Source of the DNA: Magnetococcales bacterium HCHbin5
GTDB taxonomy: Bacteria > Pseudomonadota > Magnetococcia > Magnetococcales > Magnetaquicoccaceae
Direction of reading: 5' to 3'
Assembly (NCBI GenBank): GCA_002753505.1
Contig: PEAG01000003.1
Coordinates: 62,001 to 126,000, forward strand
DNA: 64,000 nt
The notes beneath the pieces are model-generated. The model worked only from the letters and a program-made list of their open reading frames with translations, did no database searches and was not told the origin of the DNA. How positions within the stretch are numbered: the first letter of the stretch is position 1; the number at the start of each line of letters is the position of its first letter. Shown piece by piece: positions 60,305-62,637 of this stretch. Position numbers and translations under genes: made by a program.

Positions 60305-61282
60305 TTAGATACGGGTTGCAACCCCAGCCTGTTCGTTCAGAAAGCGTTCTGCCTCCAAGGCCGCCATGCAGCCGGTACCGGCAGCGGTGATGGCCTGCCG
60401 GAAGGTTTTGTCCTGGACATCGCCGGCTGCAAAGACACCGGGAATGTTGGTGGCGGTGGAGTGGGGTCGGGTGATCAGATAACCCGCCTCATCTTTTTCC
60501 AATTGCTCTCCAAAAATGGCGGTGTTGGGGGTGTGGCCGATGGCAACGAAGAGCCCGGTCACCGTCAGCACATGGCTCTCTCCCGTTTGGACATTCTTGA
60601 TCCGCACACCGGAGACACCTCCCGCCTGGGGATCTCCCAAAACCTCTTCCACCGCCGAGTTCCAGATCGGCTGAATTTTGGGGTGGGCCAGCAGGCGGGC
60701 CTGCATCATCTTTTCTGCCCGCAGGGCGTCGCGGCGATGGATCAGAAACACCTTGCTGGCAAAGTTGGTGAGAAAAAGGGCCTCTTCAACGGCCGTATCA
60801 CCGCCGCCGACAATGGCAATCTCCTGGCCACGATAAAAAAAGCCGTCACAGGTGGCACAGGCGGAGACGCCGAAACCGCTCAACCGTTTTTCCGACTCCA
60901 AACCCAGCCAACGGGCCGAGGCTCCGGTGGCGATGATGAGGGCGTCACAGGTGTAGACGTTGCCGGAGTCGCAGGTCAAACGGAACGGCCCACCCTGTCG
61001 GCGAGCCGGCTCCAAATCCGCCTGGACGACCAGGTCAGAGAGGATGGTGGTGTTGAACCGCTTGGCTTGCGCCTCCATTCTGGTCATCAATTCGGGGCCC
61101 TGGATCCCTTCTTCAAACCCTGGAAAATTGTCCACTTCTGTGGTAACAGTGAGTTGTCCGCCTGGTTGCATTCCCTGGATCAGGATGGGGTTCAGGTTGG
61201 CACGGCCGGTGTAGATGGCAGCCGTGTAGCCCGCCGGGCCGGAACCAAGAATGATGATGGGAGAATGGGTTACCGTAGCCAT
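60305..61282 (-). CDS. trxB: Thioredoxin reductase
   Basis: 325 residues. FAD motif [15 protein letters not shown] at residues 9-23, redox-active CATC in [13 protein letters not shown] (about 141-144), NADPH motif [14 protein letters not shown], and the C-terminal [23 protein letters not shown]. It reduces thioredoxin with NADPH. Standard in every motif. It is divergent from the H-NOX-like gene. Confidence 0.96.
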
Positions 61283-61374
61283 AAATCATGCCTCCAAATA
61301 ATGGACAGGGTGTGCTGTGGTTTCTCGCTTTTAGCCACAGGGTGATCCCAAAGGATATAGAGGTTGGAGAACCG

Positions 61375-62637
61375 ATGCACGGCATAATTTTTTTAGCTTT
61401 GGAAGATTTTCTGGAGTCACGCAGCGGCAAAGGGGCCTGGGCCCGGGCCATGCGGGAGGCCAATCTGGTGGAACAAAGCTTTTCCCCGGACCGTTTTTAC
61501 CCGGACGAAGGGGCGGCGGATCTCTTTGCGGCCTCTGCCAAGGTATTAAAGCTGCCCATGGGGGAGACCCTGGAGCAGTTGGGTTGCCATATGAGTCCTG
61601 GCCTGATTGAGATGGGTCGTTCCATGGGATTGATCCAGCCAGAGTGGCGGACCTTGGATATTCTGGAACGTTTGAACAAAGACATCCTCTCTGCTTTTCG
61701 CACGGACGGTACCGGCCTGAAACCGCCGGATATCCGGACCTATCGCCTGAAATATGGTGAAATTGCCGCCGCCTACGTCTCCGATCGCCGGTTGTGCCAG
61801 CTGTTCAAGGGGATTGTGAAGGGGGTGGGGGCCTTTTTCAACGAGCCTATCCGTATTGAGGAGCGGGTTTGCATGTTGGAAAGCGCGCCACTATGCCGCA
61901 TGTCCATCTATCTGGACGATCCAGCCCTTAAAAATCATGTCGACATCACCCGGGAGTTTCAGACCGTTCACAGCCGGATTCAGGAGATCCGATTTTACAA
62001 CCAGTTTGCCGGTGTTGCGGTGGTCAACCAGGGGCTTGTGCTGCAATATGGTCCGAAAGGGGTGTTGGTACAGATTCAGCCCGAGTCCCTGTTGGCCATG
62101 CGGGAGGAGGGGGGTACCTATCTGGCGTTGCCCCATCTGCATCTGGGTTTGAAGGCTGCGGTGGCCCAGGTGGATATGACCCAACGGACGGCACTGTTGA
62201 AACAGATTGTCTCCACCGATGGTCCCATCGGTCGCCGCATTCTGCCCCGGGTGGTGCCCGTCAAGCCGCTTCCCATCGAATTGCGCATCCACAAGCAGAC
62301 GTTGCGGGGCTGGATCGCCAATATTTCAGAAAGCGGTCTCTGCATCGTGCTGCGAGCCGATCCCATACTCAATGAAACCATTATCTTCACCCCCCTCAAG
62401 GTACGCTTTACACTGCCTGTCCAAACTGTTGACAGCGAGGTGACAACAGCGTCAATTCCAAAAATTGTGTTGGATGGCAATATCTTGAATATTGAAGAGC
62501 GGGAGGGGCGTCACAGCATACGCATCGTTTTTCAACCCTATGCTGTCAACGAAGCGCACCAGATCCAACGCTATTACCGGGAGAGGGAGACCGCTGCCTT
62601 TCAGCAATTAAATGCCTTGATTGCATTAATAAAATAG
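61375..62637 (+). CDS. H-NOX-like (HNOB) domain fused to PilZ domain; proximal heme histidine absent
   Basis: 420 residues from ATG 61375 (GGAGA upstream). Residues about 1-180 have the H-NOX layout: MHGIIFLALEDFL, a PP pair and then YVSDR (Y134, S136, R138), the YxSxR motif that holds heme propionates, followed by KGIVKGVGAFFNEPI. The position of the proximal histidine, 29 residues before Y134, is Leu105, and residues 90-130 contain no histidine. Residues about 285-410 are a PilZ domain with RRILPR (288-292, RxxxR) and NISESG (316-321, NxSxxG), both c-di-GMP contacts. An unassigned region of about 100 residues lies between. Likely a c-di-GMP-responsive cytoplasmic sensor whose input domain no longer binds heme normally. 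Confidence 0.85.
   Translation: MHGIIFLALEDFLESRSGKGAWARAMREANLVEQSFSPDRFYPDEGAADLFAASAKVLKLPMGETLEQLGCHMSPGLIEMGRSMGLIQPEWRTLDILERLNKDILSAFRTDGTGLKPPDIRTYRLKYGEIAAAYVSDRRLCQLFKGIVKGVGAFFNEPIRIEERVCMLESAPLCRMSIYLDDPALKNHVDITREFQTVHSRIQEIRFYNQFAGVAVVNQGLVLQYGPKGVLVQIQPESLLAMREEGGTYLALPHLHLGLKAAVAQVDMTQRTALLKQIVSTDGPIGRRILPRVVPVKPLPIELRIHKQTLRGWIANISESGLCIVLRADPILNETIIFTPLKVRFTLPVQTVDSEVTTASIPKIVLDGNILNIEEREGRHSIRIVFQPYAVNEAHQIQRYYRERETAAFQQLNALIALIK

Follow-up and report, generated by a model that had tools for sequence, protein, structure and literature searches.

Described H-NOX and c-di-GMP Receptor Systems

Zinc is held in the H-NOX proteins of Shewanella, Vibrio, and Caulobacter by three cysteines together with one histidine or glutamine, and oxidation of the zinc-site cysteines is what switches heme-free Vibrio H-NOX and what, rather than NO, activates Caulobacter H-NOX (PMC7108781, PMC12329717). 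Among 598 relatives of these zinc/redox H-NOX proteins surveyed, the proximal heme histidine was absolutely conserved (PMC7108781). The proteins in which the zinc/cysteine switch was studied bind heme as well, so the switch may be either a physiological sensor or an in vitro side effect. H-NOX domains without heme are already known as well: human sGC alpha keeps the H-NOX fold but lacks the histidine, an N-terminal extension fills its pocket, and its partner is the heme-binding beta subunit (PMC8196705).

H-NOX input into c-di-GMP signaling has been described for SwH-NOX, Legionella Hnox1, and HnoX/HnoK, in which a partner changes c-di-GMP synthesis or breakdown, and a sensor census ties HNOB only to GGDEF proteins, with PilZ unmentioned there (PMC8846402). 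The c-di-GMP receptors YcgR, MotI (DgrA), and PP4397 consist of an N-terminal barrel, a PilZ domain with RxxxR and NxSxxG motifs, and a C-terminal helix, with no H-NOX attached. YcgR and MotI are flagellar brakes, which bind the motor and slow swimming. We did not find, in the open-access literature searched, an H-NOX domain fused to PilZ or to a YcgR-type receptor.

An H-NOX Domain Fused to a YcgR-Like Receptor

The Magnetococcia are relatives of the magnetotactic cocci. The window analyzed here is a 64,000-nucleotide stretch of contig PEAG01000003.1 from Magnetococcales bacterium HCHbin5. A gene on its forward strand (61375..62637, stop codon included), with orthologs across Magnetococcia, encodes a 420-aa protein that matches HNOB (80.6 bits, residues 2–162, cut-off 25.5) and PilZ (24.9 bits, residues 298–401, cut-off 22.5) above the Pfam cut-offs in a single open reading frame (ORF), confirming the H-NOX-PilZ fusion described in an earlier note on this DNA. 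Alignment with homologs places the start at the ATG at 61375 (MHGIIF) and gives no support to an in-frame upstream ATG at 61288, which would yield a protein of 449 aa.

An AlphaFold2 model (mean pLDDT 86.1, pTM 0.52) orders the protein as H-NOX domain, β-barrel, PilZ domain, and C-terminal helix, although the low pTM and a large rmsd make the arrangement of the domains relative to one another unreliable. Foldseek matched the N-terminal part to H-NOX structures, with a TM-score by target length of up to 0.88 (4u9b), and the C-terminal half, with probability 1.00, to E. coli YcgR (5y6f, E-value 1.9e-8), Bacillus subtilis MotI/DgrA (5vx6), and PP4397 (3kyf). The H-NOX domain spans residues 1–182 (61375..61920, forward strand, as are all features of this gene) and is followed by the YcgR-N-like barrel at about residues 205–280 (61987..62214), the PilZ domain at about residues 296–390 (62260..62544), and the helix at residues 391–419 (62545..62631). 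Both PilZ motifs, RxxxR (Arg288–Arg292; 62236..62250) and NxSxxG (Asn316–Gly321; 62320..62337), are intact as had been noted, with Arg288, Arg292, and Gly321 present in 47 of 47 fusion proteins and Ser318 in 46. The earlier description of a domain fused directly to PilZ needs amending, however, since the modeled C-terminal half resembles the two-domain c-di-GMP receptors of the YcgR/MotI type and not a bare PilZ domain. The HCHbin5 genome encodes FliG and has 27 GGDEF matches, and the flagellar motor may be the target of the YcgR-like module. In contrast to the H-NOX systems acting through enzymes of c-di-GMP synthesis or breakdown, the fusion places the H-NOX input on the c-di-GMP receptor itself.

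Leucine at the Proximal Heme-Histidine Column

Residue 105 is leucine (codon CTC, 61687..61689), 29 residues before Tyr134 of the YxSxR motif (Tyr134-Ser136-Arg138; 61774..61788), and there is no histidine in residues 90–130; the double proline is Pro117-Pro118. A family profile aligned with the Shewanella oneidensis H-NOX puts Leu105 on His103 with no gap nearby, and with another H-NOX of solved structure (6ocv) Leu105 likewise falls on the proximal histidine. At this column close relatives differ without any insertion or deletion (SEIHSSF and SDILSSF, ILHGAV and ILQGAV, LIHAAI and LIQAAI); together with the profile alignment, this rules out a misaligned histidine. Sequencing error or a single aberrant gene is also ruled out, as leucine is found in 23 of the 26 members of the clade to which the protein belongs (the Leu105 clade; families f1, f8, and f13), specified by five different leucine codons. 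The remaining clade members have phenylalanine (one) or histidine (two).

In the family alignment, the proximal helix offers no conserved residue that could replace the histidine as ligand. His99, part of an LEHL motif in many relatives, is arginine in the HCHbin5 protein and asparagine in others, and His72 is not conserved throughout and is common in canonical H-NOX proteins. Among the hallmarks of a heme-binding H-NOX, the proximal histidine on helix F is absent and the heme-propionate clamp YxSxR is present, the latter in all 26 clade members. Phe108 is also invariant in the clade, and Pro118 is found in 24 of 26. The loss of the ligand argues for a heme-free H-NOX domain, a conclusion that has to stay provisional because the propionate clamp is fully kept.

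Distribution of the Fusion Family and Loss of the Histidine

The missing histidine, which had been presented as a feature of one protein, is real but is not a one-off. A family alignment search matched the fusion in 43 of 48 Magnetococcia genomes, including all 27 of good quality (completeness ≥90%, contamination ≤5%), and the proximal histidine is absent from 35 of 47 fusion proteins and present in 12. This apparent loss in most members sets the family apart from the 598-sequence survey. A genome scan returned 28 Magnetococcales loci and two from elsewhere, L085 and L086, both with the proximal histidine; L085 is a stand-alone H-NOX on a contig labeled Gemmatimonadetes. The L086 protein (L086:8001-10184), from Planctomycetota, is a single 727-aa frame that runs from an H-NOX domain with the histidine through a long repetitive linker into a Ser/Thr protein kinase–like region. 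Among 397 sampled genomes of the phylum, no H-NOX-PilZ fusion was seen outside Magnetococcia, and the non-Magnetococcia HNOB reading frames inspected there were stand-alone. An HNOB search of the HCHbin5 genome detected no other HNOB protein, and no second, canonical H-NOX was found there; within family f8, a canonical H-NOX coexists with a His-less fusion.

In a family tree from which the proximal-helix columns were excluded, the histidine is found in the outgroups and in basal fusion proteins, so that it appears ancestral and lost within the fusion family. Seven changes between histidine and other residues are needed, at least five of them forced by strongly supported branches, although this was a quickly built tree containing long branches, which leaves the exact number and direction of the changes uncertain. 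A single base often separates histidine from non-histidine codons (CTC/CAC, CAG/CAT), and outside the Leu105 clade the residue may be His, Phe, Gln, Val, Pro, Trp, or Asp. Some genomes encode a pair of fusion paralogs, one with the histidine and one without (L012/L047 and L032/L009), which suggests division of labor after duplication.

Two further groups depart from the common pattern. The fusion proteins at L043:5006-6253 and L035:3981-5228 lack the zinc-site cysteines as well as two residues of YxSxR, its Ser and its Arg, and the L043 protein also lacks the proximal histidine, having glutamine there. A separate set of stand-alone HNOB proteins in the phylum sample (family f39: L136, L138–L143, L145–L148, and L150) has no proximal histidine (FLHSLDDLPDRARL...), no YxSxR, and no zinc cysteines; as judged from its sequences, it represents an independent and fuller loss of heme features, unrelated to the fusion family.

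A Conserved Cys3-Glu Site

The three cysteines of the Vibrio/Caulobacter zinc site are present in the fusion protein: Cys141 (61795..61797), Cys166 (61870..61872), and Cys174 (61894..61896) align with the zinc ligand Cys139 and with Cys164 and Cys172 of Shewanella H-NOX (PMC7108781). The histidine or glutamine serving as fourth ligand in zinc/redox H-NOX proteins is absent, and its column (Shewanella His161, Vibrio Gln; PMC7108781) is occupied by a conserved Glu163 (61861..61863). All four residues are invariant in the 26 Leu105-clade members, and 42 of 47 fusion proteins carry the full set, including 33 of the 35 that lack the histidine; the other two cysteines, Cys71 and Cys323, are not conserved. 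By analogy with the characterized proteins, the Cys141-Glu163-Cys166-Cys174 set would bind zinc. The fourth cysteine of Vibrio H-NOX, Cys177, has no counterpart. Since L085, L086, and most of the His-retaining fusions carry the Cys3-Glu pattern, it is older than the loss of the histidine and did not arise as a replacement for heme.

Linkage to Thioredoxin Reductase

Divergently oriented and 92 bases away is trxB (60305..61282, reverse strand), encoding the only thioredoxin reductase found in the genome (TIGR01292, 395 bits, cut-off 343). The same divergent neighbor adjoins the fusion gene in 24 of 24 flanked loci of the Leu105 group (L058–L081, that is, the Leu105 clade plus L079, which has Phe105), and the pair stayed together whereas macAB, and panE in the sister genus, did not. 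At L009, trxB is about 1.3 kb away (L098). No trxB was found near 15 other family members for which at least 4 kb of upstream sequence is available, nine with the histidine and six without (L010, L032, L033, L035, L036, L037, L038, L040, L042, L043, L047, L052, L055, L084, and L087). Linkage does not track histidine loss, as these six His-less members outside the clade lack trxB and two His-containing members inside it have trxB; it marks the clade and not the loss as such, and probably reflects one event.

Function of the Fusion Protein

We tentatively favor, as the most likely reading, a heme-independent zinc-thiolate redox switch that controls the YcgR-like c-di-GMP output, the sensor probably responding to redox state rather than to nitric oxide. 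This reading is favored because leucine stands at the ligand column and nothing conserved on the proximal helix takes its place as ligand, because the Cys3-Glu set is the invariant one (26/26 in the clade and 33/35 of the His-less proteins) and the other cysteines vary, because the same cysteine set forms the zinc/redox switch of the heme-free Vibrio protein and, in the Caulobacter protein, the sole site of activation, because trxB lies beside all 24 Leu105-group loci and is absent beside the 15 others, and because the C-terminal half is YcgR/MotI-like in a genome with FliG and 27 GGDEF matches. The earlier suggestion of a heme-free sensor, or one with an alternative ligand or cofactor, is partly supported and points in the right direction, loss of the ligand being borne out, and the likeliest alternative is the Cys3-Glu zinc/redox site and not another heme ligand.

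The protein would then combine a cytoplasmic H-NOX sensor, in which heme is no longer ligated, with a c-di-GMP receptor of the YcgR type. Under reducing conditions in the cell, a zinc ion would be held by Cys141, Cys166, Cys174, and Glu163; oxidation would most likely form a Cys166–Cys174 disulfide, by homology with Vibrio Cys174–Cys182, rearranging the zinc site and rotating the H-NOX subdomains, as has been suggested for the H-NOX proteins of Vibrio and Caulobacter. These changes could alter binding of c-di-GMP or of a target by the YcgR-like module, and if that target is, as seems most plausible, the flagellar motor, swimming would be set jointly by redox state and c-di-GMP. The thiols would be reset by thioredoxin, which in turn would be recharged by the TrxB of the divergent gene. 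The fusion protein shares with Vibrio and Caulobacter H-NOX the fold, the three cysteines at identical columns, and this proposed heme-independent oxidation switch (PMC7108781, PMC12329717), but those proteins have the proximal histidine, a separate kinase as target, and His or Gln as fourth ligand, in place of Leu105, a fused output, and Glu163.

Several observations count against a redox switch: the Vibrio Cys177 equivalent is missing, two clade members have His105, and the trxB linkage follows the clade, probably through a single event, rather than histidine loss. The Cys3-Glu set, shared with most His-retaining relatives, could also be structural. As a first alternative, the H-NOX domain might be a pseudo-sensor of the sGC alpha kind, binding no ligand and serving in structure or protein interaction, with zinc in a structural role and c-di-GMP alone sensed, via PilZ. 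We consider this rather unlikely, despite the precedent of the heme-free sGC alpha domain, which is kept in all sGCs (PMC8196705), the freedom of residue 105 to vary outside the clade, and the persistence of the fusion in the L035/L043 lineage without the cysteine set and YxSxR, given that seven residues (YxSxR and Cys3-Glu) are invariant across 26 divergent clade members. The fusion protein, unlike sGC alpha, has no extension, an intact YxSxR, and no other HNOB protein in its genome.

Retention of YxSxR and Pro118, which also counts against the redox switch, fits continued ligand binding. A different carboxylate ligand, perhaps a fatty acid or some tetrapyrrole other than heme, might sit in the pocket under the YxSxR clamp and be the signal itself; an unrelated His-less group has lost YxSxR, and among the closest Foldseek matches is a Nostoc H-NOX carrying BAY 60-2770, a heme mimic (4iae). 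Yet no such ligand is known, the pocket may just be occupied by Leu105 and Phe108, and the role of YxSxR may be structural, making this reading distinctly unlikely. We assign little probability to a protein that continues to bind heme, whether by way of another axial ligand (His72, for example) or without any proximal ligand, and that senses NO or redox state with it: the clamp is kept and residue 72 is histidine in 24 of 26 clade members, but it is tyrosine in the other two, His72 is common in His-retaining and canonical H-NOX proteins alike, and the proximal helix has no conserved ligand.

It is possible, though doubtful in all its parts, that Magnetococcia turned a heme gas sensor into a heme-free zinc-thiolate redox sensor wired directly into a flagellar-brake receptor. 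A single protein would then tie swimming at the oxic-anoxic boundary to both redox state and c-di-GMP, and the paralogs of the same order that keep the histidine would be the original, NO-sensing form. The protein is a candidate for feeding redox information into the motility of bacteria of the magnetotactic type. A lineage without the heme ligand but with the cysteine set naturally separates the two functions, which makes the physiological role of the H-NOX zinc/cysteine switch testable.

The divergent intergenic region (61283..61374) forms the leader of the fusion gene, and a GGATATAGAGGTTGGA-like stretch beside the fusion start, just upstream of GATGCAC, is conserved in the genus; it may combine a −10 element with a ribosome site.
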